Shown piece after piece: positions 4,205 through 41,739 of a stretch of DNA of 64,000 bases. The position numbers and the translations under genes were made by a program. Position 1 is the first letter of the stretch, and the number at the start of each line of letters is the position of its first letter. Source of the DNA: Antedon mediterranea (Eukaryota; Echinodermata; Crinoidea; Comatulida; Antedonidae); NCBI RefSeq assembly GCF_964355755.1, contig NC_092673.1:20403001-20467000 (forward strand). Reading direction: 5' to 3'. Under the pieces are notes generated by a model. The model saw only the letters and a program-made list of their open reading frames with translations. It made no database searches and had not been told where the DNA came from.

Positions 4205-7130
4205 TTAAGGTCGTATGCGAGATATACTGGCGTGCGTAGCGGGTAAATACCCACTTAACTGTCGTAATGTGACGTAATCTCTCTTGGCCCTCTCTGTTTC
4301 ATCTGCTGATGGGGGAAACCATACTTGGGTGTCGACGCTGGCTAAATTTGTACCTACTGGAAGATTAGAACTGCTTATCTGTAAGAAATTATGAATAATA
4401 TAATAATAATTATATAACAAATATTACTGTAAACTGTTGAATCAGCTTAAAACCCTGGATTTATTAGGTACTGTACCTATAATTTCCCAGTATCATAGCC
4501 AGATCTGTAATACAGCAGCGTATAAGTATCACATGTGACGCTTTTATCATCGCTCATATGACAATACAGTACTACTACTACTATACTACAGTACCATTAT
4601 ACTTGATATATTGCCATCTGTACAGATACATTACAGAGAATCGGGTGAGTTCAGACAGAGTTAGCCAGATTAGACGCGATAAGTCCTTGTTAGAAACTAT
4701 GTCATAGTACGTAATCACATTAATGTAATTTTTAGTTATAGTCCTCCCCCATAAACATTTTAAATTACGAGTATTTATACAAAATTATTATATTAATCAC
4801 TTTGTATAAAAACATGAATTTGTTAAAAATAAAACTTACAATACTTTCTAATTGAGCGACTATATCTCTAATCTTGGATCGAAGTGACGTAAATCGGCTT
4901 CTATATCCGTTGTGGCCTCTGTAATTATCCTCATCTGCTATCACAAAGGTAAGTGCAGTGTCAAATATATTGATGTTTTCTCTGTATGTTTCAAGTAAAT
5001 CCTGAGCCTATAAAATAAATATGAATGTAGGAATATTGTCACATTATGAACATGTGTAGTTTGATGGCCATGCATTCCAACTCCAAGCTTTGGGGTCAAT
5101 CATGACGGAGTTACAGGGGTTTAACCACTATGACGGTTTCTACTCCACTCACTAGACTCAAGTAAATTTGAAGTTGGATATACGTATACTTAAACAGGGG
5201 TACATCAACAACGAAAGCTTTGGGGTCAATCATGACGGAGGGACAGGTGTTTAACCACCTACTCCACTGGTCTCAAAAGAGACTTATCAATAAAATGAAT
5301 GTTGAAATTGGATATAGGGCACATACTGAAAAAGGAGTAAATCAACTACGAAATTCATCAAATATGATTTCAAATAACCATACATCATTTAGGTACTATT
5401 TCTAAATATATATATTCTAAAATTAGACAGAGTAAAGTAAAACCTACGTTTGCATTTTCTCGTTTGCCAAGCGGGAAATTGTGAATATTTGGAACTCCTA
5501 GAATAGTCCAATAGTAATAATTGACTTCTGGGCCGCTGATTCTTTCGTTTCTCTGAAAGAACATTCGATTTAATTAATTAATATTCATATAATATTAAAG
5601 ATTGATATATATTATATATTATTATTATTATTATTATATTATATTATTAATTAAAATCGATGCAAATATAAAAAAATTCGGCAGCGTATATCTTTATTAT
5701 AAAAATATGGAACAAGCAGCCATTGGCTCAAACCGTAGACGTATAGATATCATAAGCCACGTGATAAATAGTTTACAAAACTTAAAAATACCTAATCATC
5801 TCCCCGAATTGTATATTTTTGGCAAATTTGCAAGTTTTAATTCGCATGGAAGAAACCATTCTCTCTTTTCTAAATACGGTTCGAGGAAGTAAAATAGTGC
5901 ATACTCACGAAGTTAGACATAACAGTGTTCACTTCAATTGCAGTCGTGGATATAGATGACAGTATGCGGCTATATTGCTGTGCTAATGTTGCCGCTGGGG
6001 AACCCGCAGTCGTTAATGAAACCGTTACCGTTTCCGTGGTAATAGTGGTGGAAACCTCCGTCGGTGCAGAATCAGCAACCGCAAACAGAATACAAACTGT
6101 CAAGATATCTGAAACGGAACAGCATTATTAAGATTAGTTATTTCATTTTACAAAATAACGTTTTTAAACGTAATATAAGATGATCTTAGTCACAATATAC
6201 ATTGCCCGCATCAGTGAGTTAATAGCAGATCATAATTATGACGAATTTAGGCCTAATATCTTGGACAATTGCCAAAGTGAATGTGCCCAATATTAATTAA
6301 TCTATTTGTACACATAAAACATGTTCAGGGATTTGTGTTTAAACCACAAAACCGGAAATGTTTAAAAATACTACGAAGGACTTTCTATCTTTTATTATTA
6401 TCCCTTGTTTGATAAAATAAGATGGCGGTATGTCTGAGAAATAATGTCGCGCAATATCTTATACTACACAATAAAATGTCTAACACATCTGAAGCATTCT
6501 CTTCAGTGAATAACTTTCAACTATAGTTCGTTTCTTAATTATATCTACAAAATACCGTAATTGTATAGGTATAATTGCCAACCAAAGCCACCCCTTTCTC
6601 ATAAATTTAGTAAAAAAAATCTATAGATTATTTTATTCTTCTTTTAATTATTGACTATTTTAGTTAGATCTACTCGATACTTAATTGGTAAACCTTTCAA
6701 TTGCAGATCGGTATTTTAAAACATATCGAGTAGGTACTTACAAGAAACGTTCTAAGAATCTGTTAGATTGAAAATACTAATATTGTTCTGTTTTAACATC
6801 GAACAAACTAAACAAACCAATAAATGCATTATTAAACAATAATGCCAAACTATACTATCCCCAAAATATATTTACTAAAATGATGAATTACTCTGTAAGC
6901 ACTATACACGTGGTACGGATTTATCATCAAATTTATTGTGTATCCCATGGAAACACAGTTACTAACTGCGCATAAAATGTGCACACGAATGAAATAAAAT
7001 AATGAGAAATGAAATGAACCTACACGGTTCGAACACGTTTTGACAAACCGTAAAAGTTTTTCGCTGACGAAAAAGCTAATGTGCTTACAAAATAAACAAA
7101 ACATTAATGTTCTTACTTACTTAGATACAT
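4205..7130 (-). CDS. Gene A: secreted IL-6-like helical cytokine candidate
   Basis: Five coding exons, read on the minus strand: 7121-7130, 5909-6108, 5448-5552, 4840-5007, 4205-4378. Junctions are GT-AG with intron phases 1-0-0-0, giving 218 residues. The N-terminus MYLNILTVCILFAVADSAP is a clear signal peptide, followed by a Thr-rich linker and a predicted helix A ending ...VNTVMSNF. The fourth exon (56 residues, starting AQDLLETYREN) aligns without gaps to the 56-residue exons of genes B and D. The last exon, with ADETERAKRDYVTL and SGYLP, matches ADEAERNERDYLTL and ASYLP in gene B. There are no cysteines outside the signal peptide and no obvious N-glycosylation sites. I infer a secreted four-helix cytokine from exon phases, size and likeness to gene D. 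The family link among A, B, C and D is much firmer than the IL-6 label. Confidence 0.75.
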
Positions 7131-7253
7131 AGTAATAGAGTCAAGATATCCAGTAATGTGAAGTTTAAAAAATGACACCTTCCACAATCAGTGAGTGCAA
7201 ATGTACTTCTCAAAATGTGTGATAATAATAATTTGGCATAATATTGCCATCGT

Positions 7254-7262
7254 CTTTATATA
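7254..7262 (-). promoter_or_regulatory. TATA box of gene A
   Basis: On the minus strand this reads TATATAAAG, about 125 bases upstream of the start codon at 7130. A TTCCGGTTCC stretch lies just upstream. Genes B and C also have a good TATA box, 35-105 bases before the ATG once transcription start is allowed for. Confidence 0.5.
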
Positions 7263-8870
7263 CACCAAAGGAACCGGAAGTCAGCCAACTCCAACGCAAG
7301 GAACATCGAAGCGTGTCAAAAGAAAGCGGCTCACTTCTCAAGGGACGTTCTACATGTTGCTCACGAAATATTGGAAGTATCGTCTTAATCAATCCCAAGA
7401 GGCCGGTGGTTCGGTGATCCAGTGTTAACATTCCGTAACGTGTTCATTAGAAGTTACTTTTCGCTGTTTTTATGTTAGTCTAGTAACCTTTAATATGGTT
7501 TAAAAGTGAAAAAACAACAAAACTGACTTAGGATGATTATTTGGCGGTCAAGTCTTGACGGATTAAGTCTACTCACACCTGGTTCGTCTTCATATCCAGA
7601 GTCATACGTCACAGCCATAAGCTACAGGATTACTTCAATTTTTACTTTGTCGTTGTGTTGTTAGTCAGTGTACGTGGTAATAGACAACCTGTTAATTGAT
7701 AATTGATGATATACAACATTTCCGTTAAATTATTACACCACAAATGGAAGTAAAGACACGATCTTAAAAACACAATCTCACAGCAAACATCAACATTTGT
7801 GTATAATATTGCGATGACGAATGCTGTTATTTTTTGACAAAACATTTTTTTTAGTTGAACCTAAAGTTCCGTTTCGACCTAAAAGTACATCGATTACCCG
7901 TGTTAAACCACAAATGCCATGAACCTCTGAAGGGACAGCGAATCATTCTAAACACCCTTGATGAAACGAAATTACCTTACCTAACAAAACCTTAACAATA
8001 AACATATGTACGTTAATAGACATATTTTTTTCAATCATTATGTCCACACACAAAAAAATCACCGACTCACAATATCCCGTCACGAATAGAGTCTGATTGA
8101 CCGCAAACGTTATTGCACCTAGCACCTAGCATGACCAAGGTAATTTCGCCCGCCTCAATGAAATGAGCTACAACATTAATAGTCATGTAAAGCAAACTCG
8201 TTTTCACGTTTCAAAAACCTCCATTCTTTTGTGCATGGATTGAGGTGGTATCATTATATCATCCTCACTAACTACCCATTTACCATATAGCAAAATACAC
8301 CTGGTCTGATTCCAGCCTGTCCATCTTATCAACAGACCATTTTACAAACAAGAACTGACAATTTTCTAGAGACAGTGATTTGTTATGAAACGTTTCGGTT
8401 AGTATTTTTCTTTCTCGTTTTTTTGTTACTCAAATTTGCAAGTTATGATACAACATCGTTTCAAACTGTAACTGTCTTAGTTGAACTATAAATTGTTCTT
8501 CTTCTTCTTCGGTGTCAGAATGCTCAGAAGCGGATCAAACATAATGCACTTATAATCCTATCGTTTACCAAGTAGCCATACAACATTCACATGGATTAAC
8601 ATCAATGTTATATCTATTTTGAAAGCATTTAAATCATCTTCTTGTGAGGTATGAGCCACTCACGTACATATTATAGTTAAACAGTCCATGCAATACCGTA
8701 TCACATCATTCTGTAATTAGCATCATACATAATTAGCATCATAATTAAATACATATAATGTAAGAATAAGTAACTTTTTGTTTAAAGCACGTAAAACTAT
8801 AACAATGGACAACAAATAATACCGCAACATGTTCAAAAAGTCTATTCAACCGTAAAGAGCACTTACTTAC

Positions 8871-8880
8871 TTAATTCCAT
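8871..8880 (-). other. Possible alternative first exon of gene A
   Basis: On the minus strand ATGGAATTAA is followed by GTAAGTAAG, the same layout and phase as the assigned first exon at 7121-7130 (ATGTATCTAA then GTAAGTAAG). A TATATA-containing stretch lies about 120 bases upstream near 9000, the same spacing as for the assigned start. Splicing to 6108 would give a signal peptide beginning MELNILTVC. It could equally be chance or a relic of a duplicated gene. Confidence 0.25.
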
Positions 8881-9609
8881 ATACTTGACATGACAGAAAT
8901 TCGCTGCGTAACACACAGACCCACGATTTGTTTTGTATTGTTTATCCTTGTTTGTTTTCTTTACAAAGTAACGAACATATTTACTTTATTGTTCACTCAA
9001 TATATAAACCAATTTGATTGAATATAATATAAATAAATAATGGTCATTAAAAAAAGATTCATCAGGCTTAGCGCCTAAACTTCTTTGCCTTCATTCCAGG
9101 TTGTACCACACGGATCTATAATACACAATGTTCTTATGATCAATTACAGTACTAAGCAATTCAAAGGGTGAATCAGATATACTTTTGGAATTGGTGATTT
9201 ATTAAATAATATTATTTAAACTACAATTATGCCTAACTAGGGGCCTAACTCGAAACAAACTGTTAAATGTTATATATTCCACCATATACACCATTAAGTT
9301 AACTTCTAGTCACTGACCTATTTTAGGCTACATTGTTTTTGATTCAGAAATGATGTAGGAATGAGCCTTCGAATTTAAAAGAAGGGGAAATATTCCTTTA
9401 AAAAAGGGTACCATATGTTACAATTTGACATCTTAACCACTTTATTATGACACTACACTCCCGGGGTATGACGACATGACTAACACAAATTGAATTCCAT
9501 CACGATGTATTTTAGTTTTGTGTGCCTTGCACTTTAAAAAAAAAGGTTTTTGATGACAGAACTCAAATGGTGAACGATATCACATGCATCCACATTTTGT
9601 TGGTACGTT

Positions 9610-9700
9610 AAGCTCTGTTTACACTATCAAACTATTGTGTGACGTGCCCAAATAAGATAGTGATATGACATCATCATGTCCATTGGGCATATCACATTTA
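9610..9700. mobile_element. AGCTCTGTCTACACTATC-type MITE, partial copy 1
   Basis: Left end AGCTCTGTTTACACTATCAA and the internal TGACATCATCATGTCC dyad are present. The right terminal arm is missing. Confidence 0.6.
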
Positions 9701-9845
9701 AAGTGAAGTGAACTTAAAAGTAAATACATAGTTAAGACATAATACACAAGTTATAGACGTATGTTTTTAAGTGTGTTTAAATGCATTAGCACCTTAATAT
9801 TTCATTTACGTATATTCAGTTTAATCTGTTTGAGATAATTTATAT

Positions 9846-10016
9846 AGTGCGTAACGCAAGTGACGGGATATGATTGGCCAAATTGCATTGCGCGTATCGT
9901 CCTTGTAGTTTTCCTATGTTGGAACCAAGCTTTCGTATCGTCCTTGTAGTTTTCCTATGTGGGAACCAAGCTTTCGTATCGTCCTTGTAGTTTTCCTATG
10001 TGGGAACCAAGCTTTA
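9846..10016. mobile_element. CGCAACGCAAGG-type MITE, copy c, with a 41-bp triplication
   Basis: The left arm has GTAACGCAAGTGACGGG and ATTGGCCAAATTGCATTGCG. The right end, CGTATCGTCC through GGGAACCAAGCTTT, is repeated three times in tandem with an exact 41-bp period (starts near 9893, 9934 and 9975). Confidence 0.65.
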
Positions 10017-10841
10017 ATAACCAATGCTAAAGTTACATTGTTATACACAACAATTTAATTACCGTAAAAAATGTCAAAATGTAGATTTTAGTCCGACTTT
10101 GGTGGGAATATACTTGACATGGTGACCATATTGTTTTCAACGGAAGGTCAATATGCTATAACAATTCGTTCCGTTTTCGAGAGGATAATGATATTGCATG
10201 AAGTTACTGGTACCTTGCCGCGGCGGAATGCGCTTACACGCCACGCGGTCAACTCAAATGTAAGCTGACATACTAAAGACGTAACTTATTGAGTGGATTA
10301 AATAAAATATTAGTAAAGGGATGATTGTTTTGATGGCCTAATATGTGGTTTATGAGACCGCTGAAGGAGGATACAGTGTTAAGTACCGTAACTCACAGGT
10401 GGTGTGGGAGCTTCGTCCCAGGTTCACACGAACACACTATTACGTAATCAATATAATTAAATAAATATAAAAAGTAAATCAACAATCATACAACTCATTT
10501 ACATAATAATGATAATTATTGAATTAATAAAATAGACTCCATCGGTCGACATAATAATAAGCACATTTTTATGCATGTCTTTTGCGATATCGACATTTTT
10601 TCTCGAATATAATATCCGGTATAATCTATTCATAATGTGTGCAAATTATACATTAATTTCTATTAACCATTATTTTGAACTTCATTAGGCTGAGGTCAAA
10701 GGTCAATATCACTATATATAATTTCAATGTCACACAACATTCTCACGTAATCTAATTTTATTACTAATAAATGTATACGTGTAAGTATTTTTAAAAATTT
10801 GTCGAATGCTCAGTGGCCATTGACTTGAACAATGCAGCCTA

Positions 10842-11212
10842 ATTCAATTCAATTCAGGTTTATTAAAAAATATACTAAGTGCTATTGCACAATAGTCTGA
10901 ATTGTGCCAAATTAACATTATAAAAAGTACCCATAACAAAATATAAAATTCCATTTAAAAGTTTATCCAAATATAAAATATGTACAAATCTAAAAATAAA
11001 AACTTAACATACATCACAAAACAAACTAACATTACATTTAGAATATCGCTAAAACACAATTTATTCCAGGCAAACACATTTAAAATGTGTTCCTTTGTAA
11101 AGCAATTTAACGCATAGTGTAATTTAGTAAAAGTACAATTTGTAAACTTAATGTTCTTTGTGTTCAAGGATCATGTAACATTCTTTTGGCCACCTTTGAA
11201 CAATCATTCCAT
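10842..11212 (-). mobile_element. Retroelement 3' end (LINE-like tail)
   Basis: Read on the minus strand, the segment ends with AATAAACCTGAATTGAATTG repeats, a short tandem-repeat tail typical of non-LTR retrotransposon 3' ends. No reverse transcriptase frame is visible, so this is a 5'-truncated copy. Confidence 0.4.
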
Positions 11213-14200
11213 GACCCCAATGTGATACATTTTTTTTTTAATCAAAAAAAAAAACTTACCTCAAAGTAATTCGCCACGATCCATTTCAGAGGTTTACTCG
11301 CTGGCATACAACCAAACGCCTACCACAATCTATTTCCAAAAATAATATTTATAATATTGTGGTTACAACAGAAAATTATGATACTATCATTAAGTACGAT
11401 GCCAGGGGACCACTAATTTAAAAGATGTATCAAGAGAAAATGAACATTTTACATAAAAATAGTTGAAAATTCACTTGTTTAAGTGTCACATTCTATTGAA
11501 TGTTTCGTTTATGAATAACGTGGAAATTAAGATACACAGTACTGGACACCGTAACACACTTATAATTATGTTCAAAATTACTAAACACTGGTATCTGAAT
11601 TACCTGTTTAATAATACTAATAATAATTTATTGCAATAGGCCTAACACGCACACGCACTAATTCAAATCTCTATTTTCTACAATAACGAATGCACCTGGT
11701 CAATCATTCACTTCCCTTGGATATTTGTGGTTATAAAATAAAATTAATTATTATAACTAAGAGTATTAACAAGTTTGATTTAATACAAAAATTAACTTTT
11801 AAACTATTGTGATAATTCCGCCTACCTGTTATGGAAAACAACTTATTTCCATATACCTTGATAATAATTATGTTATTACATCGTAGGCGTAACAGATGTA
11901 CAGACCCAAGTATATACTTAAGTTATATTATACCTTTTGACATGTTTAATAAAGCAAATCTCAGTGCTGTAGTGCAAACTGATAATAATTTTCGATTATA
12001 AAATATTCAAGCACATGGTAAATAAATTATCCGAAAGTGGATATTGTGTGTGATTTATTTTGACATAGATAAGCTGCTCTTCAATGCAATAAATAAGTGA
12101 AGCAAGTACAGTACAGGTATGTTCACATTTAAAAGTTGTTTTCTATACTCAGACATTCCAGGATATTTTAAGAAGGACTTCTGTAGAACCTGTTGTGTGT
12201 GAGTGGCTGTGCATTGTCATTTCACATTTTTGTTCTTCATAAGAAAGATTACAACAACAAAAGAAGAAAAATTCATAGTATTTTATTTACACTTGTAAAA
12301 TACTCAGGTGTAATTGAAAAGAATGAAACAAGAACAAAAGTGGTTGCAATTGTTAGTAGAATTAAAAATCTACAAAAGAGCTATTGTTATAATATCAAAT
12401 TAATTTCAGTAGGCCGGTCGGTTCTGGTGCTTGAATACATACACATACAACCTATTTAAAACAATATGAACATTTATTTGTTAAATAAATAAATAATCTG
12501 TAACATTTTACATAAGATTACAAGCCCGTAACTAGGATTTTTACTTTTTTCGCAAAAAAATGGAGAAATGCAAGCGTAAAGAAAAAAAAAGATTTTGGCC
12601 TAGCTTATTAGATAAAAGTAATTTGCATGTTATCTATGAAGGAATGGCCAAAAATGTTCATGAGTTATGCCTCTTTATTAGAACTTTTGCTGCTGTTTGT
12701 AAGGGGCACTTCTGGAAAAATTAAGAATAAAAAATAAAGGAGGGGGGTGTCTTTCGTACCCTACGAGCCCCAGTGGCTACGGGCATGGATTGCTATGATG
12801 TATTGAACATAAGGCAAGTTTAAATCCAACGAAAGAAGAAGAAAAACATATAATCGAGAAATGAAGAGTTTAAACCCGCGACTACTAAACTTTACTGCTA
12901 TTAGGGTCTATTTGTTCATTTTAAAAATTCGTTTGTTGTAAAAAAAATCACTAGGCCTAGAAATCCTGTATTGATTCATACATTCTTGATTTGCACTCTC
13001 GTGGATGCTCGTAAAAAGTCCGCCATGTATTCTAAATATTTTCTGTCTGTTTATCGATTTTTTAAAGTGATTTGCAATCCATGTTATATCACACATGTTC
13101 TGTTCACAATGTATGTCCAATTAAGTAGCCTAATACTGTCATACAATAAATATTTTGTAGTTTAGTACTAAAATGTAATTAAATAGACCTACAAGGGTTG
13201 TGGGAAAGTACGGTTAAACCAATAGGTGTGTAATAATGTTGATAACACGATTTCATTTTATTTATGTATTAAATAGAGATTGGAATACAATCTTCCCTGA
13301 TTAGGCCCTCTTACCAGTTACGACAATTTATTATATCATAAAACAATAAATTAAATGAAATTAACAAACAGGAAAACAAACTTCCAAGTTTGAAGGTCAG
13401 TCTCAATAACTTAACAGCTTCGAAAAAACATGTTGCAAAAACACATTTTAATGTTCTCCTTTGGGATATTATCCTGAATATTATCTGATAATATAAACGG
13501 TAGTTATTATTTTTATATTCCAAAAGGGAAAACTAGTATTCAATAAATTGTACTGAACGAAATTAATGAAATAACTGTCGGTCAAGTTATTGTGCAACCT
13601 GCCTACAATTGCTGCTATAAAATGGAAAATGTGTGAACGAATGAATGAAAAAGTTACTTATTACTATTTTAATTCGATAAAATAATAGCATTATTCAATA
13701 TTAATGTCAATAAATAGATTATTTATTCAATATAATAAGACAAATTTTACAATATAAAAAACCAACAAAAAACAATAAAATAAGCAAAAGGTCAAGAATA
13801 GGGTTTTATAGAAAATGGAGAGTGATATTGAGATTTGTTAAACATTAATAATTAATAATAAAATAATAGTAATATTTATGTCAATAAATAGTAGTTATTT
13901 ACCGTACTAATTATTCAGTTAAATAATGTATAATATATTTAAAAGAAAAAAGTAGATGAAAAGTGCCAACAAATTGTAAGCCACTGTCAACAAGTTATAA
14001 CTTGTCATTTACCATTTCGTTGCGGCTAGAAATAGTTAATGTGAAATTTGATTTACAAGAATAACGAATACACTCGTGAATTACTATAAACACCTATTAA
14101 TTACTTTTAATTATTTAACGTAAAAATGACCATACTCTTTAAAAATAAAGAGTTTCAGCTCGTTGGAATTGATATATACATGATACTTAACCGGCCAATC

Positions 14201-16209: not shown

Positions 16210-16455
16210 GGGACACTCGTTTTTCGCGCGCATACAAAGTCGTATTACTAATATCACTGTTTGAACGCGCGCGTACAAAGCCATATACGTACCATCAACT
16301 ATCAATGTTTGAACACGCAACAAAGCCATATACGTATCATCAAATATCAATGTTTGAACGCGCGCGTACAAAGCCATATACGTACTATCAACTAGCAATG
16401 TTTGAACGCGTGTGTAAAAAGCCATATTATACTGTTTGAACGCGCGCGTATATGA
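16210..16455. repeat. 48-bp tandem repeat with CGCGCG core
   Basis: Four to five units of about 48 bp. Each starts TTTGAACGCGCGCGTACAAA and contains GCCATATACGTA and ATCAACTATCAATG. The second unit is 45 bp and the last two are truncated. An 82-residue frame on the minus strand follows from the repeat and is not evidence of coding. Confidence 0.85.
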
Positions 16456-23119: not shown

Positions 23120-23265
23120 GGTTCTCATTCGGACGCAACGCAACGACGTAGGCCCAACGCAATGACCAATCAAATCGGCAGTTCGAAAGATCTATCGCGG
23201 CGTGATTGGTCAAAATACTTGCGTTGCGCTTACGTATTAAGCGTTTACTCTATGCGTGAAAGCAA
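23120..23265. mobile_element. CGCAACGCAAGG-type MITE, copy d
   Basis: Contains GGACGCAACGCAACGACGTA on the left and GTGATTGGTCAAAATACTTG followed by CGTTGCGCTTACGTA on the right, as an imperfect inverted repeat of about 145 bp. CCAAT boxes lie in both arms. Confidence 0.65.
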
Positions 23266-25843: not shown

Positions 25844-25852
25844 TATATAAAA
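25844..25852 (+). promoter_or_regulatory. TATA box of gene B
   Basis: TATATAAAA lies about 105 bases before the proposed start codon at 25949, a spacing close to that in gene A. Confidence 0.5.
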
Positions 25853-25948
25853 TGAGAGAGAAGAACAAAATGCAATCAGATAGAAAGATCTTCGAAAGGA
25901 GAAAAGACGACAGTACCAGACGACCATTGACTATTAGTTTCTTCAGCA

Positions 25949-28611
25949 ATGTTGCGTAAGTGTTGCATTCAATATTGTTGTTTACTTTTCATAAAATAGT
26001 GTGTAAAAATGTATTAAAATTCTAATATTTTAATACTTTTAGAAATCGTTTTTAAATGTTAAAACATGATTTTAAAGTTCCTTTCAAATAAAATATATAT
26101 TTTTAATGGAACGAATAACATATTTTAAGGACAGCAGTATAGGCCCTGAGGCATGGTTAAGTACAAATTACTTCGTTGACAGACCTTTTCCTGACCCTAG
26201 TTGTAGAATAGTACATTATTCAATCTATAGGCAACACTCCTGATCTATAGCTAGATCCCTTTAGAGCAAGGGTTAATTCGAATAAGCCTATATGTGCGGC
26301 TTACTTTACACATCTCAAAGCTGGTAACAAATATTAAAGAAGATTCAAAATTAAATCTAGCATGAGAGATACGAGGAAATAGTGGTAGAATATGTTTTTA
26401 TTCTGAGCGGATTTTCGCTCAACTTAGATTCTATTTTCGTTTTCCGCTTACCATTACCGCTTGTCTGTGTACATTGGCATTAATGTGTAAAACCACCGTA
26501 TAAATTTCTACATTTCTTCAATTTTTTTTAATACAAGACTTGTGGATTCAATCTTTGCTACGTGCGCTACTATATTGAAGATGTATTTAATACTTACTTT
26601 GATGGCGTTTAATATTTGTTATTAAGATTTAATTTTTGTTAAAGATATTGTAGAGGTATTTATTGGTATAGTGTGCGTAATGACAGTGGCGTCCACCCCG
26701 ATTGCTACACGAACTTACTACAACGACCTTATATCTGGTTTCAGCAGTCTACTGGTTGAGAGCAGAGACGTTTTAAACAGATTTGTAAGTTAAGCTATAT
26801 TCTCAATTTTATAATATAAAAACAAAACAGAGCTAAATCTTAGTTTAAAACACCTTCTTCGAAAAATAAAAAGTGAACTATTACAAAATCGTTTTAGAAA
26901 TCGCAACGAATTCAGCAAGATGCAGTTTTAATGTCGACAGTGGAAGGTCTCCCGGATGTTTCCGCTTTGACATTTCGTACACGTCAAAATATGACAGTAA
27001 GTACCAGTACTTAATTATTTAAAGTAAGTTCACCAATTAAAAGTTTGAATATTTTAATAGGGTATTTTATATTTAATAGTCGAACTTAAGTACAAAACTT
27101 AACAAATATAAAATGTTTGTGTATTCATATTAACACCATGATTTTGTATAGTCCCTTTTATTGGTCAGTTTGGGCTTTTATAGAATTTTATAAAATTGTA
27201 TCTTACAAGAGGTGGTCCTTTAAAAGAGGTGGTCATTTATGAGAGGTAGTGGTCGTTAAAAGAATTTGTTTCTTAGGAGAGGTCACTAACGATAAGAATA
27301 ATAAGTTTTAAGCTCTATCTACACTATCAAACTTTATGTGACAAAAAATGTGTATGTGTCAAAGCACTACCATTTAAGCATATCACACTTTTCTTGTCAC
27401 ATAAAGTTTGATAGTGTAGACAGAGCTTAAGGAAATTATATATGTATTGATAATTCTTATGTTTTTTTAGGAAGGTGATCTACTTGAAACACACAAAGTG
27501 AATTTACTAATCTATCACTCTGCAATCGCGCTGGTTATTCTAGATGAACTTGCCTACTTGGGATCGGGATCGTTTTTATCTGAATTTCAGCATATTTCTG
27601 GTGATTTGAACATCGCAGCCTCTAAAGTAATCGGAATTGTATGTACCGTCAATGAAACACATTCATGTTTAATTAATTATACAATTTACTAATAAAATGA
27701 TGATAATCATTTCTATTCTGATTGTATATCTAATATTAATTATTCGTTTCCATTCATTTTCTTCGTGTTGATATACAATTCCTCAATAAATAGATATATT
27801 TTATTTTATTGTATTTATTCGGTATATAAAACAGCACAAACATCCCAGCGGGCAAACCTGTGAAAAAAAAGTAAATAACAAAGACAACGAGGAAAAAAAG
27901 CAATTAAACAACCAAAAGTACAACGAACGAATTAATTTGGAAATAAAAAAATAAAGATAAATATATATTTATAAAATTGTTTATATCTCTACCAACCTTC
28001 TTTGTTTTCTACTCTTATTCAGTCTCCACCCACCATTCACCACCCTGTCTCATTTTGTAATATTTCTTTTATTCCTGTCCACCCAGGCGGCACTTGCCAG
28101 TTCGTATGCTATGACATCCAAATTCCTTCACTTGCTCTGATGAAGGGCTAGTGTTGCCCAAAAGCTCTGCTAACTTTTCTGGCTGTTTTACTTTATCGTT
28201 TTGATTTTAGCTTTTCGCTTTTTTTTTGTATCTCCATTGGAGATTCAGCCACTGATACCCACAGCATTTGTCAATTTTTCAGTAATTTGCCTTTGGATTT
28301 ATATATATATATATAGGCTAAATAAAGTAAAGGATGAGTATTGAAATTAAAATAGTTTATAAAATATACTAAATTATTATCTATTCGATATAAAACAATG
28401 ATTAATAAGTATACATATCTATTTTGTTTAGATGCATTTCGGGAACCTTACCGGAACTTGCATTACGTCATCAAACGGCACCCTCTATTTTGACACGACC
28501 GCAGATGAAGCGGAGCGAAACGAGCGAGACTATCTGACACTTCTTGCCGTAGCCTCATACCTTCCAGACACTTTGGCGGATTTTCGAAGACTGAGAAATT
28601 TTTATAGATAA
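25949..28611 (+). CDS. Gene B: secreted IL-6-like helical cytokine candidate
   Basis: Coding exons 25949-25955, 26645-26784, 26898-26996, 27471-27638 and 28432-28611, phases 1-0-0-0, 197 residues. The second exon opens with a hydrophobic signal core (VFIGIVCVMTVAST) and ends in helix A (LISGFSSLLVESRDVLNRF). The 33-residue third exon shares the ERI/QRI position with gene A. The fourth exon is 56 residues and begins EGDLLETHK, parallel to AQDLLETYR in gene A. The last exon has ADEAERNERDYLTL and ASYLPDTLADFRRL, parallel to gene A. Three N-glycosylation sites are visible (NMT, NLT, NGT). The first exon encodes only Met-Leu plus one base and is the least certain part. An in-phase alternative acceptor at 26654 would drop three residues. 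A MITE lies in intron 3 and retroelement debris in intron 4. Confidence 0.75.
27310..27428. mobile_element. AGCTCTGTCTACACTATC-type MITE, copy 2
   Basis: A complete 119-bp copy in intron 3 of gene B. The left arm is AAGCTCTATCTACACTATCA, the right arm its near-perfect complement ending GTAGACAGAGCTT. The arms extend more than 30 bp, so the element folds into a near-complete hairpin. TTAA overlaps the right end. Confidence 0.85.
27835..28290 (+). mobile_element. Retroelement-derived repeat (GATGAAGGGCTAGTG family)
   Basis: Lies in intron 4 of gene B. It contains CTGATGAAGGGCTAGTGTTG, then CTCTGCTAACTTTTCTGGC and ATTCAGCCACTGATACCCAC. The same words occur in reverse near 45700-45800 and as a fragment near 55265-55330, so this is a dispersed family. 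It is probably a retroelement 3' region; the class is not determined. Confidence 0.5.
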
Positions 28612-29733
28612 TAAGAAAAGGTTATTCAATAATTATCCAATATTATGAAAAAACTGTAATAATATTTGTTTTATTTTTATACTACAAAAATTAACCCCTA
28701 AAACACTCGACCACCCACTTCAAATGATTTATTTAAACTTCACAAACTTCTAAAAACTACCCTACCAAGGTAGTATACAGTAATCTAATATCGCCCTCAT
28801 CGATCACTTCTATAAATCATGTATAATAATGATCTAGGCTTCTCAAATAATTTATAGCTGATTCTCTCTCTATTTTGACGCGATCATTTTGATCAAGGTA
28901 ACAAAACACATATCTGTTAAATTGTAAGAAGTTGTTATGTACTCACTGGCCGATCGAGAAATTTCAGAATTAGCGCACCAATCCACAATTTTGGATCCGC
29001 CTTGTTCTAGGCCTATACATTTATGTATTGTAATTTTAATATTTTATTTAACTATATAAAACATTGTTTTACGATACAAATTAACGTCTATTAGATTCGA
29101 GTATATTTTCAACATACTAGTAATGTATATTTATCAATGAATTTTTTAGATACACATCTGCTAATTATGTAAAAGCAAAATACTTAAGTCTCAATAATCG
29201 AAACGCTGACAGGATAATAATGGGTGTGTTTCACTTCCCCCGGGGAAACCGCGTGACAGTTCCCCGAGGGAGTGGCATACGTGATAGTCCTGCGGTTCAA
29301 AGCATTGGTAAAAACTGTTTAAAATGTAAACAAAATCTCTACATTATAATATTCTTGTAAAAATAATATTAAAAATATTTATCGCTCATAGAAAAGAATA
29401 AAATGCTTCCAATGTAAATGTGCAATAAAATATATATCTAATAGATGACCTTGTTTAGTAATTATTATAATTTGTAGTACTTCATCCAACAACAGAGACC
29501 AGACACATATAACTTACTAAAGCTAGCTAGAAGCTACCAGGTTAGTTCAGGCAGGGGAAAATAAGCATAATGTTATTAGAAAAAAAGTGAGTGATGATGA
29601 TGACTTAACCTATGCGACATGAAATTGAAATCTTTAGGGTAGGGTACGGTACGATTTTAGAATGATGGTCCAATTATACCCCGTGCTGGATCGTTTAAAC
29701 ACAGTGAATTACTTTAAAATCAAAACTTACTGC

Positions 29734-29850
29734 AAAGCTCTGTCTACACTATCAAACTTTATGTGACAAAGTGCCCATAATATGGACACGTTGAAGTCAT
29801 ATCACTACCATATTTGGGTCTAGCTAGTTTGAGAGTGTAGACAGAACTTT
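29734..29850. mobile_element. AGCTCTGTCTACACTATC-type MITE, copy 3
   Basis: Left arm AAAGCTCTGTCTACACTATC, right arm ending GTGTAGACAGAACTTT, internal CATATCACTACCATATTTGG. 117 bp. Confidence 0.8.
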
Positions 29851-29876
29851 AGATTGGACATCTAAACTACATTGAC

Positions 29877-29970
29877 TCGCAACGCACGCAAGGACGTAAG
29901 TGCAACTTAAGTAATTTGACCAATCACGACGAATATGCGTTGCGTCAAAGTGGGAACCAAACTTAAAGCT
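29877..29970. mobile_element. CGCAACGCAAGG-type MITE, copy e
   Basis: Contains CGCAACGCACGCAAGGACGT, then TTTGACCAATCACGACG and GCGTTGCGTCAAAGTGGGAA. It abuts the next MITE directly. Confidence 0.65.
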
Positions 29971-30069
29971 CTGTCTACACTATCAAACAAACAAAAAAGT
30001 GTGATATGCCCAAATATGGTTATGATATGACATCATCATGTCCATATAAATGAGCACATTTTTTTACTA
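29965..30069. mobile_element. AGCTCTGTCTACACTATC-type MITE, partial copy 4
   Basis: Left arm and the ATGACATCATCATGTCC core are present, the right arm is lost. It starts within a few bases of the end of MITE copy e. Confidence 0.7.
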
Positions 30070-30647
30070 TAGAGAAAAGGATGAATAGCCAGATCTGAAC
30101 CAACACCATGGGGTTTAGAGGCAAGTAACCACGCAGCATTCTTATATACAGTATACGTATAAACAAAATACTAACGGCACAACTGATTATTGATTAAAAG
30201 AAATCGAGGTATCTTATACCGTGAATGATACCAAGAAACGTCCACTATTTGGAAAGGTCATCCTTAGGAGGTTAATTATCCCAATTGATACGCAATTTAA
30301 ATGTCCATCGTAATGGAACTCAAGTAATGAAATATTGTTACGATTCCAGGAATTCGGTGTGGTTTGGACAGTTTACTGTTTATTTTTAAAATGATTAATT
30401 TTAGATAGACGAGATAAAAAAGAAAAATAATGAGCTCATCCATGGATTTGAAGTATGCAAATGCAGCATACCTACTTCATTGTATTTACGATGTGTAAGT
30501 ACCATGCAGTAGTTTTTAAAAACAACTAAAAGAATGTTTCAATTTAGGCCTATTCAAAACATATACTTATAGTTTCTAGGGAATTTCATAAAATGTCAAA
30601 ATAATGTATAAGCCTAGTTGCCTAGTTTATTGAAAAAATACAATCTT

Positions 30648-30796
30648 AAGCTATGTCTATACTATCAAACTAGTTTGACCAAAAAAGTGTGATGTGCCCA
30701 AATATGGTAGTGATATGCCCAAATATGGCAGTGAAATGACATATGGGTACATCACATTTTTTGTCACATCAAATTTGATAGTGTAGACGAGATTTA
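30648..30796. mobile_element. AGCTCTGTCTACACTATC-type MITE, copy 5
   Basis: A complete but diverged copy: AAGCTATGTCTATACTATCA on the left, TGATAGTGTAGACGAGATT on the right, with a doubled ATGCCCAAATATGG core. Confidence 0.8.
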
Positions 30797-31584
30797 ACTG
30801 TCATTGGAAACGGGGTTTAAAACGAATTTGGATGTGCACAAATTAGGAAGTAAAGTTTCTAAATTCGAAAAAAAGCCTACATAGAAGAAGTACGGTGGCA
30901 ATAGGGGAGAGAAGGGGGATGATTTTTCTACGGGGTTGTCAGATTTCGCATTCAATTCAATGAACACGTACCGCCAGACTACCACCAAACACAACCTTAA
31001 AATTAAAAATAGTCTCAACCTTTTGCACAAAATTAATAAGACTAGGCCTTGAGTATACGTTTTCTTAAAAATAATAACAATTATTTACAAAAATGAAAAC
31101 TATCGGCAATTATTCTTTAATTCCGCTTTTAGTGTATCTGAAATATATACGTTACCACACCTATTTTAGAATCAACAGATTTACTATGTAACAATGTGTA
31201 CAAGATCACTCCGCATTGATATCTTAATTGATTAGGGGGTTTTCTCTAGACATTAAAGTAATCCCTGCTTGCATATTATATTCTGAGTCACGGCAACCCG
31301 GATAATTTATTTTGACAGTGTCACATGATGGACAATCATTATTATTTTATATATTGCATTACTTTAACCATATTTAATCAGTGAATTTAAGTTTTGCCAA
31401 TAAGTCTGCTTAGGGACGTCTATCACGAAGATAAAGGAAATTGAATTAAAATCTTCGTTGTCTACGCTGACATAGCGCAATCCTACTGAACTGGTATAAG
31501 CCTGTAAAGTCAGCTATCCTCTCAAGAACAGCACATACACATTGCCATGACGAGAAGCGATTTAGTAGTATTTAGTTCCGTAAT

Positions 31585-34500
31585 ATGCCGATACCGAGGC
31601 TTGCGATGTGCTTTCTACTCGGACTAATCTTATCGACAGACGGCAGGCCAACCTCCGCAATCAAAACTCTACAGCACCTTGACCAAGAATCGGACTCTGG
31701 AGACACCCTGGATATAAATACGATTGAAGTGACCGAATTCCAACGTACACTGGCTACCGCGGCACATCGAAGTAAGCACATAACATTATGTCTAACGGAA
31801 ACTTCTGACAGCAGTATAAAATCGTTTTCATCTAAACTGAAGTGTCTGCTAAAGAAAATTGGATCATGTTCAAAAGATCGAAAGGCTACCAAAACTCTAA
31901 GCATAAACGGTATCAAACCCTTAGCATCGTTCCAACAAACTAACACACTAAAGCAAAACAACAACAAAAAATGTGAAGTTGTTTTAGACTTGATTCAATT
32001 GATAAAGAAGAGTATGTTTCTTTCAAGAGAAGGCGTTGTAGAGACAATGACAACTGCGGAACATTTAGAACGACAAGCCATACGTGAACTCGATGTAGAA
32101 GACGCGATAATTAATAACAATACACGGGGATGCGTGCATAACTACGTAACCATTGATAACAAAGAAAACGTACAATCTAGAAATATTATTTCACGATCTA
32201 GAAGAAACATATTTAACATGAATGAACATAGTTTTCTGCTAAAAAACACTTCTAAAACAACACATGGAAATGTAAAAGATGAAAATCAAACAGAAATTAG
32301 AGGCATTGCAAGAGGTGTCAATAATGATCTATCAAATCCAAAAGTTGAGAGATCACGTCTCATGTTAACAGATCACCAAGATGCAGCGGATGCGCTACGA
32401 ATTGGAATAAACGATGTTACACAATATGGGGCAAGATTGTCAGGGAGTGTTGTACAACGAAGGAAGGGGAAACAAGATATAATAACTTTAAAAGATAGAG
32501 TGACGAAACTTGGAGAATTCTCAAAACAATTTACTTATAACCACAATTCAGATAGCATATCTGATTCAAGAGAATTCAACGACAGTTCCGAGTTGACACA
32601 AACTCCAAAATACATAACATTTCCAGAAAGAGTAGTGTATTATGTAGTTATAAACATTGACGAAGTTTATTCGATTTTAAGGGAAAACTACAGAATTTAT
32701 GTGAGTACTTAACATGGTCTTTTTGTCTAAATAAGCGGCAAGTTCACTTTAAACAAACTCCATATTTTTATTCTATAATAATAGTCCTAAAAATAATTGT
32801 TTTTGTTTAATGTTTTTGTTGAGTATGCCATTTTATTGTCACATAATAATTATTCACATTAACCGAACATTGGATTAAAAACATAATTTACCTGAAATAA
32901 ATGTAATATAAAGCAAAAAATAGTCAAATTTACTGGAAGTCAATGGATTTTTGGTATAATTTGTCTTTTTATAAGCTTAGTGAAAACATTTGTTTTTCGA
33001 CGGACGTGATTAACTTTATTAAAACTGCAAAATGGTCTATTATCAAAGTTATTATTATAGCCTACTCCATTTTCATGTATTTGGGGGACAATACAACTTC
33101 AAAAGAAATTACTGTACATTTGTTTTTAAACTAAGATTCGATAGATCCATTCTCATTTTAGAAAGTTACCGTAATCAACTCCGTTTTTCTACGTTCAACA
33201 AATTTAAAGTTTGCATATAATTTCACAAGAGTATTGCAGGGTATTAACAGCAGTGTTTTCTATATACCACACCATGTCGGAAAGTTGGTAAAATCTTAAT
33301 TTCCACAGACTTACACTTATGAGTAACTTTTTCAGAAAGAAATATCTAAAGAATGTACCATTTTCATTGAAATCTTTTATTTACATCAACCCAAATTATT
33401 TTTTATCAGATTTCTCAATAGTAACCTAAATTTGAACAGATTTAAGAGAATCTGTAACCATTGCTGTCTAAATCAACCAAACAACAGACCACAATCCGCT
33501 ATTTTTAGAACTTATTTTTATTTTCAGCGTAGGAAATATTTTGGCAGTGGTAGGCTTGGCATAAAGTTGAAAAATAGAGGAACGTTCATACAGTGGCATC
33601 AAATAGGACCACATAGGTGGTGGTTCAAACCAGTAAGTAGTCCTCTACATTCACTTAAGCAGAATTTAAACGATCGAACGAAGAGTGAGCTCTTCTATCC
33701 TTTAACACATGTCCATGACATAAATGAATTAATACCAAGAAGAAAATAATTCGGATTGATACATATTAGATAATCGGGAATAATTATATGAACAATATCA
33801 TTTGAATCATATAAATAAGGCCACAATGATGTTATTTGCGTGGTACAGATACGAAATGACCTCATGGGCCATAAATTGACAAATAACCGTTCCTTTTATG
33901 GTCATTGGTAAGTGTAAATTACTTTAGCTAAATCATAAAGCAATCATGATAATATATCTACCTTTGATCAACCATAGGCCTAAGTCAAAAAACTATGTAA
34001 ATAATAATAAACCTATTAACCGAAACATAACCTATGTTCAAAGTCTGCAGACGAAATGACGTGACGAAATTAGATTTCCTTTAGATTAAAACGGCGAGAC
34101 GATAATACTGTTGATATGAACATGTCAGTTGTCATACGCGTTATACATGTGGGAACCTCTATAATTACCATATTAATATTCTTTCATTGTCTAAAGCTAA
34201 AAACAGCACGCGGTTTGTTTTTAACTTATCAAAAATTATCAGCTATAATTCGATTTCTAGAAATTCCTTTGTATTTATAATTTTGCAATTATTCATTAAT
34301 ACCGTAGGCAATAGACCTGCATAATTATTTCAAGGTACACCAGGGCTGAATAAATATGTATATAGCTTTGACAAAAAGTGGAGGCGAGGCTACTCAAAAG
34401 GTTAAAAAAAGTAAAATTAAAGAGGTTACCTTAGATATCGAACATTCTTAACGCTGAGCATTTTGTTCACAGGCCTAACATTTTTTGTAATGCTATGTAA

Positions 34501-35900
34501 CGTTTTTTTTCCCCAAAAAATGTTTATTTGTTTGTTTCTACAGAGTATACAAAGGTTATGCGATCACATGGATTATCTCAAAGCTTATGAAGTTCTAATT
34601 AACGGAATCCTGGGATTTGAAAAGCTACAATCAGATAACGAAAACGTACTTTCTGGTTTAAACATTTTAAAAATATTTTGCGCCCGATTAAGACTCAGTA
34701 TTTACTACATGGTAAGTGGAAACACCATCACGGCCACCAAATTATTTAGAAATAACAGTATTTCAACTAATTTTTTTCCAATATTATTATCATTGTACAG
34801 TATATTGAACGTTTATGTAAGCCTATACGTGATCGCTAAAAAAATATCAAACATTACAGTAGGATAAGATATAGATAGTGCAAAAATGGGGCTTCAGCAT
34901 TGCTGTCAAAATCCTTCCTGAAGCGTGGTTCCCACTAGCGACGCAACGCAAGGAGGTAACGCAACGCAAGTGAATTGACCAATCACAAGCGATGGCTTAT
35001 TCGCTTGTGATTGCTAACTGTCTATAAATTCGCTTGTCATTGGTTAAAACGCTTGGGTTGCGTTTACGTCCTTGCGTTACGTTCTAGTGGGAACCAAGCT
35101 TAAAGCGTGGTTCCCATTAGAACGCAACGCAGCGACGTATCGACGGAAATTGATGTATTGCGTAACCACCACAAGCGGGAACCGACGACGAAACATTGCT
35201 GCAAACATCGCAGGTTTGATTTCACGCAGGCGGGGGAAAACACAATTATTAGAAGGGCATTTTCTTACGTTAACATTTTTTAAGCTGGTTGATCGATGTG
35301 TCACAGTGTTAAATGCTGCAATTATCATCAGCATGTATTTTCAAAACAAGCGTACTTGAGCTTAGGAACGAACATTACTGAGCGCCGCCAGTCAAAAATT
35401 ACGCAGCCCTCTAAAGCTTGGTTCCCACTAGCGAAGCAACGTAACGCAATCTACGCAACGTAAGCAAATGCCCTTCTAATAATTATGTTTGCCCCCGCCT
35501 GCATGAAATCAAACCTGCCATGTTTGCAGCATTATTGCGTCGTCGGTTCCCACTTGTGATTACACTTTACGTCGATACGTCGCTGCGCGTTGCGTTCTAG
35601 TGGGAACCACGCTTAAATATCAAAAGGCTTCCGCTTGTTTGTTGCATTTTTAAATGAATTAATCTATACCCACACATAACATTCAAATGCACTACTCTAT
35701 ACTCACGAATAACATGATAATTTACTTTTTTTCAGATTAGAAAATATACAGAATCTGCCGGCGAGAGTGATGAAAGTATACGACAAAAATTAACGTCATT
35801 GGAAAATCGCTCCTTTCAACTTCATTCCATATTAGTACTACGCGAACTTCGAGCGTATTTGCATAGATTAATACTTGAGATAGAACAATTAATTGAATAA
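31585..35900 (+). CDS. Gene D: long-precursor IL-6-like cytokine candidate
   Basis: Coding exons 31585-32700, 33528-33632, 34544-34711 and 35736-35900, all phase 0, 517 residues. The protein starts with a signal peptide (MPIPRLAMCFLLGLILSTDG) and has a long N-terminal region with five cysteines (69, 87, 95, 130, 183). An RSRR furin-type site lies at 204-207. After a polar stretch, helix A begins near residue 347 (PERVVYYVVINIDEVYSIL). The 35-residue and 56-residue exons have the same lengths as those of gene A. The 56-residue exon carries LCDHMDYLKAYEVLINGILG followed by FEKLQ, reminiscent of the IL-6/G-CSF signature region. The last exon has IRQKLTSLENRSF and SILVLRELRAYLHRLILEI, close to IL-6 helix D in spacing and character. 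N-glycosylation sites include NTS, NQT, NDS and NRS. This member makes the IL-6 comparison most convincing. Confidence 0.8.
34920..35102. mobile_element. CGCAACGCAAGG-type MITE, copy f
   Basis: A well-preserved 183-bp copy in intron 3 of gene D. It begins AAGCGTGGTTCCCACTAG and ends CTAGTGGGAACCAAGCTT, with inner CGCAACGCAAGTGAATTGAC and CCAATCACAAGCG. The terminal inverted repeats are near perfect. Confidence 0.85.
35103..35614. mobile_element. 512-bp foldback element related to the CGCAACGCAAGG MITE
   Basis: Two inverted arms of about 165 bp, 35103-35270 and 35455-35614. They start AAGCGTGGTTCCCATTAGAA and end TTCTAGTGGGAACCACGCTT, and share inner blocks such as AAACATTGCTGCAAACAT and AATTATTAGAAGGGCAT. 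The centre contains another partial MITE end (AAGCTTGGTTCCCACTAG at about 35414). Open frames of 95 and 85 residues on opposite strands come from the palindrome. Confidence 0.8.
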
Positions 35901-36532
35901 TTAAATGATATCCCACTACTTCGATAGTCGAATGTGGAACATATAAAGAAAATCCAAATGACTTAAAACAACAATTAAAAAAAAGCCAAAGTAAACACGT
36001 AAAAGAACAAATATCAGACATTGTATGGCGTTATTTAATACACACCTACATATTTTACCTGCAGTACACGGAATATATTTGAAAGCTGTTTATATTGACT
36101 ATCAGTAGACACTTAGAGCAAAAGGGAAATTCCCTCAAAAATAGATTCGTTGTGTTAAGTATAATATACACGGTTAATTGATTTGCCTGACCTTTCATTC
36201 ACAAAAATGCTGATATATTAAACGTTAAGGGGAGCATTAAACAAAAAGTGCTGAAATACAAATGAGTCTATTTCTTGATATTCTTGGAAAATATATACGC
36301 AATTCACTCACAAAACCAATGGTACTTGACAGTCTATAGACAAAAACCAGATAATTCAAATGAAAATGGCCAGAAAATATATCAAACTTTTATTTGATAA
36401 CTTAATGTTTCAGACTTGCAATTCTTAGTAGGTTTACTTTGTAACAGGTATTTAGCCAATTAATCACAGACGATAGTTTCGTGGATATGAAATATAAGTC
36501 TAATGAGGGTGGCGTGTTGGAGAGATGGGTGG

Positions 36533-36540
36533 TATATAAA
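36533..36540 (+). promoter_or_regulatory. TATA box of gene C
   Basis: TATATAAA, 68 bases before the start codon at 36608, implying a 5' leader of about 40 bases. A CCAAT pentamer (AGCCAATTAA) lies about 80 bases upstream. Confidence 0.6.
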
Positions 36541-36607
36541 AAGGTGTACCGAAAGAGAAACGGTACATCTTGCTGGAGGATACACAAACCAACTGAAAAT
36601 TATTATC

Positions 36608-39376
36608 ATGAGTGTAGTCGACATATTACAGGGTAAGTATTGGCTGTATTCGTTATACCTTCTTTCAATAAATGTTCCTAGGTTGTAAATGCATACAATT
36701 TAGGGCTATGCTATATTTTAGTTAGCAGGTACAACAATGCGTTGTACATCCAAATTACTGAACTGAAAGGTTTGCCATTTATGTAATGGTGCAACAAAAA
36801 TGATCAGGTAATGTTTTTATTATATGCTGTTTAGATTTTATTACTATAGTTAGCACAGAAATAACTATTTCATTTTCAACATAAATGTTGTTATTTTTCC
36901 AAATGTTACATAGGTCAAAATCATGTGAAAAAAAAAGAAATTGATAATTTTGAACGCATATGCACTGCAAATGTTTTGCATAAGTTTGTATTTATCAATT
37001 ATCATATATAGGCCTATGTAATTTTAAAATGAACTCTTGTTCAAAGTTTAAAAGATTGAAAACATCGATTACTGATTAATACAGGGACAATTGTATCGTT
37101 TATTAGTTTAAATAAGATTACAAACCACCCACTGACGTCAATGCGTCCCTGGGTTTCCCCCAAAAAAGTATATATCTATAGTGATATATGATGTTTCCTT
37201 CATAAGGGCTTGCCTAATACATCTTTATTGCAGGCTGGTTCTTTCCAGGCGAGTCAAAACTTTCGTGTATTCGTTTACTACTATTTTATCAATATAGGTC
37301 TATTTTCCTTTTTCTTTGATGTAGGATTGTATTTCGTTCTTCTGGGGGCATTTTCTACGTCACCGAGTACTGATTTCTCATTTGCCGAGTATGACAAGAT
37401 CTACCATTTAACGAACACATTGCAATGCCAAATAGTAAATGCAACTGATGAGGTAAGAAGCCAGACCACAAGAGACAGACATTAATTTGACAGCACAGTC
37501 GCCGGCTGTATTTTCTTTTTAATGTTACTAACGATTTTAATTTTTTTGGACAGAAAAGCAAAAATATGTCTATTTATGAGAGTTTCATGTTATTTTTTTT
37601 TAGTTTCATATGAACTACACATCAAGGATACAAGCTAATGTTCGCAGGATTATCACACCCCTAGAGGATTGCCCACAGAACATATGCAACGATGTAAGTA
37701 TTTTAATAATAATAGTACTTTTAGTGTCGTTTCATAAGTAAAGATGTTTTTTCCACAAAAGGGAATTTTTTTTCACAAACGGGGCCGGGCAAAAATCGTC
37801 ATAAGCTAGGCTAGTTAAACATATCATTACCTTTGCTGCTAGTTTGAAAAGGGCACCTCGTAGAAAGGGGGTTCTAAAGGCTTAGCATCTATATCGAATT
37901 CAACCTCGATTAGGAATGACAACTTCAACACGTGGAACTGTTTTTTTTTTGTTTCAAAATACGTCTAAATGGATAATCCAAAACAGGAAAGAGAAAAATT
38001 ACTTTTTACTCTTCCTTGATTCAAACATTTTAATTTTGTTGTTATTCTTTGCAGACCACGATCAATCGTATTATAAAACATAAAGATAGCTTAGGAGCCT
38101 ACCGAGACACCCTAGAAAATATAACATTAGCCTACACGAGCACAAGGATACCAGTTGCCGACAGTTTACAGGCCCTGAACGCTGTTATTCGTCATTTAAA
38201 AACAATTCTAGTAAGTTTAATAAGTTATTGTGGCATTTAATATAATATCCTATTAATTATTTAGAGTACCGTTATATGAATGTTTATTGCGATTGTTTAT
38301 CATGCAGCTAAATTAAATTTAATAAAACGTAGTTTTGTCGTGCGGTGAATAATAATTTTCTAGCTCCAAGTCGGTACCAGAAATAGTCTTTAATATGAAT
38401 TTTTTTATTTTGTATGGCCATAATATATGAATGTTTGTATCGCAAAAAATCCACTACATATGTTGCGAAAAAGGCACTACAAGTGAAACTTTAATCGTGG
38501 ATACCACCACCTAGCCTACCTTAAGATTCTAAGCCAATATTTTGTAATTACCGTTTTTTTTACTCATTCTACTTATTTCATTTGACAGCGACGAGCTGGC
38601 GCATCGTCTACAACATACACACCTTCACCGCTATCCACGACACAGTCCACTGTGGTAAGTTATTATATCTATGTTCTGTGTTTTATTTTTTTATTTTATT
38701 TTATTCAATTTCCAGGTAACATACAAAAATCATAAACAAGGTACGGCATCATTCAACAAAACAGAACAAAAGTACTATCAGCACCTGCGGGTAACCAAAA
38801 GTGGATCAGTTCAAAAGAACTGCACTGTCGAGTGGCTTTCCCAACTAATAGTACGAAAAACGCAAAAGACATAAAAACACAGTGATAGTCTAGATGAATT
38901 CGATATCAGTAATACATTTTTTCAAATCCCTTCTAAACCCCCCCAAGTTAAACAGGACTTGTGTTGTATTAAAAAGCAAGAAGGAATCTTGTACGACGGT
39001 TTATCAGAAAGGTGACGACATGTTACCAAAATTAGTTTTAATAGTCCTTTCCATCCCTACAATTTTTATTTAGTGTTTCGTTGTGAAGATTTCTTCAAAA
39101 TTTTGAAATTAAAACCATAAAATAAAATGAATTAATGATGATATTGATATTTGAACATTTTAATTGCAGATTCAATATGTATCTGAGTATGGCTTTTCTA
39201 AACTTACGGATCTGTGGTTACGCGATGCAATCTTATACGAATTCTTTATGTCTCTTTTACGCTATCAAAATGAAATAAACATTGACGTGATTCAGTTCAG
39301 CGGATGTAGACAGAGTTATCAATGCGGTTGTTCGGTTCTTGAGCTATGCAGGCTAAATTACCAAAGCTGTGTATGA
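36608..39376 (+). CDS. Gene C: secreted IL-6-like family member with Cys-rich tail
   Basis: Coding exons 36608-36632, 37325-37452, 37604-37693, 38055-38210, 38589-38654, 38716-38790 and 39170-39376, phases 1-0-0-0-0-0, 248 residues. MSVVDILQG is joined to LYFVLLGAFSTSPS to form the signal peptide. The acceptor at 37325 is fixed by phase, because an upstream one at 37234 runs into a stop. The 30-residue third exon has the SRIQ match to QRIQ of gene B. The 52-residue fourth exon corresponds to the 56-residue exon of A, B and D. Unlike them, C has a Ser/Thr/Pro-rich exon (ASSTTYTPSPLSTTQSTV) and a separate exon before the last. The last exon carries the helix-D-like LTDLWLRDAILYEFFMSLL and then a cysteine-rich C-terminus (five Cys in the last 23 residues). 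N-glycosylation sites: NAT, NYT, NIT, NKT. A divergent paralogue of the cluster. Confidence 0.7.
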
Positions 39377-41731: not shown

Positions 41732-41739
41732 TTAGATGT

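Follow-up and report, generated by a model that had tools for sequence, protein, structure and literature searches.

The question raised by this locus is whether an echinoderm encodes class I helical cytokines and, if so, to which branch of these cytokines its genes belong. The locus lies in a stretch of 64,000 nucleotides of the crinoid Antedon mediterranea (RefSeq assembly GCF_964355755.1, contig NC_092673.1, positions 20,403,001 to 20,467,000), which we call the window and in which positions are counted from the first letter. A previous annotation made from the letters alone, here termed the sequence-only reading, had proposed a cluster of four IL-6-like helical cytokine genes (A to D) in this window. 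Our analysis suggests that long-chain class I helical cytokines, secreted and acting through a receptor-JAK-STAT mechanism, are encoded by genes A and B, by a paralog outside the window, gene E, and by their divergent relatives C and D; to this reading we give a probability of about 0.8. Ligands, CRLF1/gp130-like receptors, a JAK and a STAT seem to form a complete cytokine signalling system in this genome. The more specific assignment of A, B and E to the IL-6/G-CSF group is not established.

Genes A (minus strand) and B (plus strand) are each predicted to consist of five exons with intron phases 1,0,0,0, and AG/GT ends were found at all of their introns, so that the phase-consistent exons of the sequence-only reading were borne out. 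The predicted products of 218 and 197 amino acids match each other at E=8e-31 with 32% identity across 187 amino acids, and the alignment recovers the previously noted matches DLLET, ADE.ER..RDY.TL and YLP. Searching the genome (an assembly of 354 Mb in 18 contigs) with A and B revealed the paralog gene E on the same contig, approximately 5.3 Mb from the cluster (C4:25689430-25696132). It has exons of 37, 134, 99, 168 and 183 nucleotides (nt) with phases 1,0,0,0, encodes 206 amino acids and is approximately 30% identical to A and B; genome searches with E and with C revealed no additional close members. A search of the assembly for COX1 gave no mitochondrial match. Identities between A and B at codon positions 1, 2 and 3 are 39, 56 and 37%, respectively, and other pairs among A, B and E are similar. 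Conservation thus peaks at position 2, the pattern of diverged coding sequences under constraint, which marks A and B as real coding genes. By inspection, A, B and E all start with a hydrophobic leader peptide, and a perfect TATA box (TATATAAA) precedes the start codon by 132 bp in A, 105 bp in B, 153 bp in E and 75 bp in D. A different first exon of gene B, starting at ATG 26581, was ruled out for want of a usable donor.

In the genes of growth hormone (GH), IL-6, G-CSF and EPO, a split signal-peptide exon precedes exons for helix A, a loop, helices B and C, and helix D, with phases 1,0,0,0. This long-chain class I layout of five coding exons was found in A, B and E. The 168-nt exon described previously as shared is present in A, B and C and additionally in E, and genes B, C and D are arranged in tandem with A inverted, as had been described.

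For fold prediction, AlphaFold was run on single exons with input derived from the A/B/E alignment. Exon 4 was modelled as two helices (residues 2-28 and 36-54) joined by a loop, that is, a helix hairpin (mean predicted local distance difference test, pLDDT, of 88.6), and exon 5 as a poorly ordered loop followed by helices 27-42 and 46-55 (mean pLDDT 65.8). Hydrophobic-moment analysis identified four amphipathic segments in A and in E. The modelled hairpin and helix D would provide what a class I cytokine requires of these exons; they do not prove the full bundle. A Foldseek search with the exon-4 hairpin returned generic helical hairpins only and is uninformative.

The check for gp130-like receptors in the genome that had been proposed with the sequence-only reading did reveal a class I cytokine receptor gene (L062) on the minus strand of contig 6. 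Its product contains an Ig-like domain and a cytokine-binding module, which carries two pairs of cysteines (Cys 102, 112, 142 and 151 of the model) and the sequence WSDWG at the WSxWS position, as well as additional FN3 domains, a transmembrane helix, the sequence WPEP, which by inspection is a box-1-like motif, and a long cytoplasmic tail. These are features of class I receptors. The fn3 profile matches L062 at 5.7e-40, and in the PDB its first three domains match CRLF1 (1.3e-14), CNTFRa (1.3e-5), IL-12Rb2 (7.6e-5), PRLR (0.002) and IL-6Ra (0.008); nearly all other PDB matches listed are class I receptors as well. With these three domains as query, a tandem array of at least six copies was found at C6:1241620-1314576, and further partial copies, namely pairs of Ig and first-CHD exons, are scattered over the 20.6-25.3 Mb region of contig 3 and also lie at 142 kb of contig 4. 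The genome also contains a STAT gene and a JAK-type FERM segment with JAK2, TYK2 and JAK1 as best PDB matches. Most genome matches to human gp130 fell in FN3 exons of the titin, usherin and Robo types, which were rejected on inspection; two minor matches were traced, of which the one at C6:1289766 led to the true receptor. A match to PF09240 on contig 10 was discarded, there being no receptor at that place.

In the mechanism considered most likely, the secreted four-helix bundle would bind the cytokine-binding module of CRLF1/gp130-type receptors from the same genome, upon which the receptor chains would dimerise and be phosphorylated by receptor-bound JAK, and STAT would carry the signal into the nucleus. 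We infer the full four-helix fold, the pairing of ligands with receptors, and a role in immune or injury responses. Insects possess such a combination of an invertebrate helical ligand, a gp130-like receptor and JAK-STAT in Unpaired (Upd) and Domeless (PMC7378365), to which the crinoid genes are likened here in these components. Gene architecture, the predicted hairpin and helix D, the four amphipathic segments, and the co-occurrence of a class I receptor, a JAK and a STAT in this genome lend good support to the earlier proposal of secreted, helical, class I cytokine-type genes.

Several observations weigh against this reading. No profile or pairwise comparison matched the proteins to a known cytokine at database-level significance, the exon-4 hairpin taken alone is a generic fold, the resemblance of gene E to GH described below is one of more than 100 comparisons and is not common to A and B, and genes C and D are tied to A, B and E chiefly by layout and weak similarity. 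Specifically, a Pfam search of the ligand proteins gave no match to IL6 (PF00489) or any other cytokine family at E<=10, which was the negative outcome of the profile check proposed earlier, and a PDB sequence search gave no cytokine at E<=10. Absent sequence matches weigh little, because in a control the PDB search with CLCF1 misses its known relative CNTF. A six-frame search with the IL6 profile against the whole genome was also without match, a result that is uninformative because the genes match exon by exon. When a profile of A, B and E was compared with others by hhalign, E-values were 0.035 for EPO, 0.047 for CNTF and 0.072 for GH/PRL, as compared to 0.2-0.87 for non-cytokine controls and 0.59 for the accepted distant relatives CNTF and GH in the same comparison, and membership in class I is therefore favoured.

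Within class I, A, B and E may belong specifically to the IL-6/CNTF branch of gp130 ligands, a tentative placement whose chances we see as somewhat short of even. The receptor in this genome is nearest to CRLF1, CNTFRa, IL-12Rb2 and IL-6Ra, and the two most similar of these, CRLF1 and CNTFRa, are receptors of CLCF1/CNTF. The CNTF match of the A/B/E profile (E=0.047) places helix D on helix D in register, and the helix D pattern V/L-L-[RKQ]-E-L is shared with CNTF, CLCF1 and CT-1, the ligands of gp130-LIFR. In pairwise shuffling tests, exon 5 of gene E scored z 4.2 against the D region of CLCF1 (7 of 2000 shuffles) and gene B scored z 3.7 against IL-6. With IL-6/G-CSF (PF00489) the genes share the five-exon 1-0-0-0 layout, a comparable protein length and a signal peptide. 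However, this layout is unspecific to gp130 ligands, the similarity to CNTF, CLCF1 and CT-1 is weak, no Pfam match to IL6, LIF/OSM or CNTF was obtained for A, B and E, and the hhalign E-values overlap with those of non-cytokine controls. Vertebrate CNTF, CLCF1 and CT-1 genes have fewer exons, and exon 4 of IL-6/G-CSF genes measures 147 nt as compared to 168 nt in A, B and E. Mature A and E contain no cysteine and mature B contains one (gene D encodes several), and the two-disulfide pattern of IL-6/G-CSF with its conserved cysteines is missing from A, B and E. The IL-6/G-CSF homology put forward in the sequence-only reading thus found no confirmation in either the IL6 profile or the disulfides, and the best signals, to GH for gene E (helix A to C) and to CLCF1/CNTF for helix D, are not decisive.

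That A, B and E are growth hormone/prolactin-type (group 1) hormones, which would put the GH/PRL branch before the chordates, appears unlikely to us. The sole strong outlier of the pairwise shuffling tests over 22 targets was gene E against human GH, with z 6.2-6.3 (BLOSUM45/50) and 5.6 (BLOSUM62) and 0-3 of 2000 shuffles, accompanied by z 3.6-5.3 against bovine GH (4.6-5.3 with BLOSUM45/50). The alignment of E with human GH is collinear from the mature N-terminus, and the first mature exons of both end at a phenylalanine after 31 residues (..TYSQF in gene E and ..TYQEF in human GH, each directly before the intron). The last residue encoded by exon 2 is F in A, B and E, just as in vertebrate GH and PRL, and the 168 nt of exon 4 are close to the 165 nt of GH. 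The GH/PRL match of the A/B/E profile places helix A on helix A, and PRLR is among the PDB matches of the receptor (E=0.002). Five exons with phases 1-0-0-0 and similar exon sizes are common to the crinoid genes and GH/PRL. A GH-like protein has been reported in amphioxus (PMC9010856). However, the score of gene E against GH is suggestive only, because it is taken from approximately 110 comparisons and is not repeated by A, B or human PRL: in the shuffling tests A and B gave no signal against GH and E gave none against human PRL. The similarity to GH is hence confined to gene E, the match of the A/B/E profile to GH/PRL is not significant, and neither the GH cysteines nor the conserved GH/PRL disulfide pairs are present in A, B and E.

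Slightly less probable still is that the secreted products form a lineage-specific helical family with no relation to class I cytokines, whose exon layout is convergent. The lack of any significant sequence match to a cytokine and the generic helical hairpins of the fold search might indicate this; against it stand the 1-0-0-0 phases with matching exon sizes, the four amphipathic segments, the collinearity of E with GH, and the size of the class I receptor family, whose members need ligands.

As an observation, the cluster of four genes in the window is confirmed, with corrections to C and D (Table 1). A and B are intact, with signal peptide and five exons, and C and D are resolved in part. 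Gene C is firm only in its last two exons; neither a donor for its signal-peptide exon (from 34129) nor an exon 3 was found, and gene C may be degenerate. By shuffling, exon 4 of C scored z 5.2 against exon 4 of D (1 of 2000 shuffles), and exon 5 of C scored z 3.4-4.0 against exon 5 of B or E. In gene D, the intron segment 38716-38874 recurs at about 100 places genome-wide, with more than 100 copies or fragments. This dispersed repeat has an apparent open frame and a splice-like acceptor (VTYKNHKQGTASFNKTEQKYYQHLRVTKSG). Being a repeat, it was ruled out as an alternative last exon, and the true end of gene D is therefore the exon that ends at 39376. The end given for gene D in the sequence-only reading fits this exon and was kept; the open segment was dropped.

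Table 1. Predicted exons of genes A to D, with positions in the window.
Gene	Feature	Position	Strand	Description
A	exon 1	7121..7130	minus	10 nt, ATGTATCTAA, phase 1
A	exon 2	5909..6108	minus	remaining signal peptide, Thr-rich stretch, helix A; amphipathic segment
A	exon 3	5448..5552	minus	105 nt, A-B loop; matches B
A	exon 4	4840..5007	minus	168 nt, helices B and C
A	exon 5	4205..4378	minus	CD loop, helix D, stop codon; conserved with B and E
B	exon 1	25949..25955	plus	7 nt, ATGTTGC, phase 1; predicted on the basis of donor and phase
B	exon 2	26645..26784	plus	signal peptide, helix A
B	exon 3	26898..26996	plus	99 nt, A-B loop; matches A
B	exon 4	27471..27638	plus	168 nt, helices B and C
B	exon 5	28432..28611	plus	helix D, stop codon
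C	candidate exon 1	33898..33907	plus	10 nt, ATGGTCATTG followed by gtaagt, TATA-like box ~90 bp upstream; tentative
C	candidate exon 2	34129..34276	plus	signal peptide VVIRVIHVGTSIITILIFFHCL, helix A; tentative, candidate 3' end
C	exon 4	34544..34711	plus	168 nt; firm
C	last exon	35736..35900	plus	helix D (LVLRELRAYL), stop codon; firm
D	exon 1	36608..36632	plus	phase 1
D	exon 2	37325..37452	plus	signal peptide, helix A
D	exon 3	37604..37693	plus	90 nt
D	exon 4	38055..38210	plus	156 nt, helices B and C
D	optional exon	38589..38654	plus	66 nt, Ser/Thr-rich; uncertain
D	last exon	39170..39376	plus	helix D, Cys-rich tail; outside dispersed repeat

A survey of 18 metazoan phyla and subphyla from May 2026 reported IL-6-family cytokines in vertebrates only, and traced IL6R-like receptors to molluscs and placed them in sea urchin (PMC13203501). 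According to a 2022 review, there are no type I helical cytokines in acorn worms or sea squirts, and a GH-like hormone exists in amphioxus (PMC9010856); a 2012 paper stated that signalling through cytokine receptors is apparently absent from sea urchin (PMC3296744). Beck and Habicht described an IL-6-like molecule or activity of a sea star biochemically in 1996 (cited in PMC9465101). In a full-text literature search of open-licence papers, we found no helical cytokines in echinoderms. To our knowledge, no gene is known for the echinoderm IL-6-like activity of 1996. If A, B and E are ligands, the question of orphan receptors becomes directly testable. Our approach via exon phases, the split signal-peptide exon and the TATA box points to a way in which such genes could have escaped surveys that rely on BLAST. 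We consider the chances evenly balanced that a complete class I cytokine network, with a minimum of three to five ligands and of six receptors in tandem, a JAK and a STAT, has expanded independently in non-chordate deuterostomes, and that the vertebrate IL-6/GH-type ligand-receptor system was therefore already in place in the deuterostome ancestor, long before adaptive immunity. As a guess, TATA-box promoters and the tandem expansion of ligands and receptors would suit immune or injury signals that are inducible and evolve fast.

Other features were noted in the window. Between B and C lies gene F on the plus strand (31585-32700 and 33528-33750), with two exons and a signal peptide; it was considered as an FGF-like gene, since the C-terminal part of its product (RKYFGSGRLGIKLKNRGTFIQ) is faintly FGF-like, yet it has no Pfam match and this candidate was rejected. 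Long tandem repeat arrays at 318-1507 and 41088-41750, with six-frame translations of the PETLPPLPE and DHNQIIL type, respectively, are probably non-coding. On the minus strand, inspection identified exons of a putative aldo-keto reductase gene (43123-48877), exons resembling uronyl/heparan 2-O-sulfotransferase (50803-52958), and an exon of a bHLH transcription factor (59586-60014).

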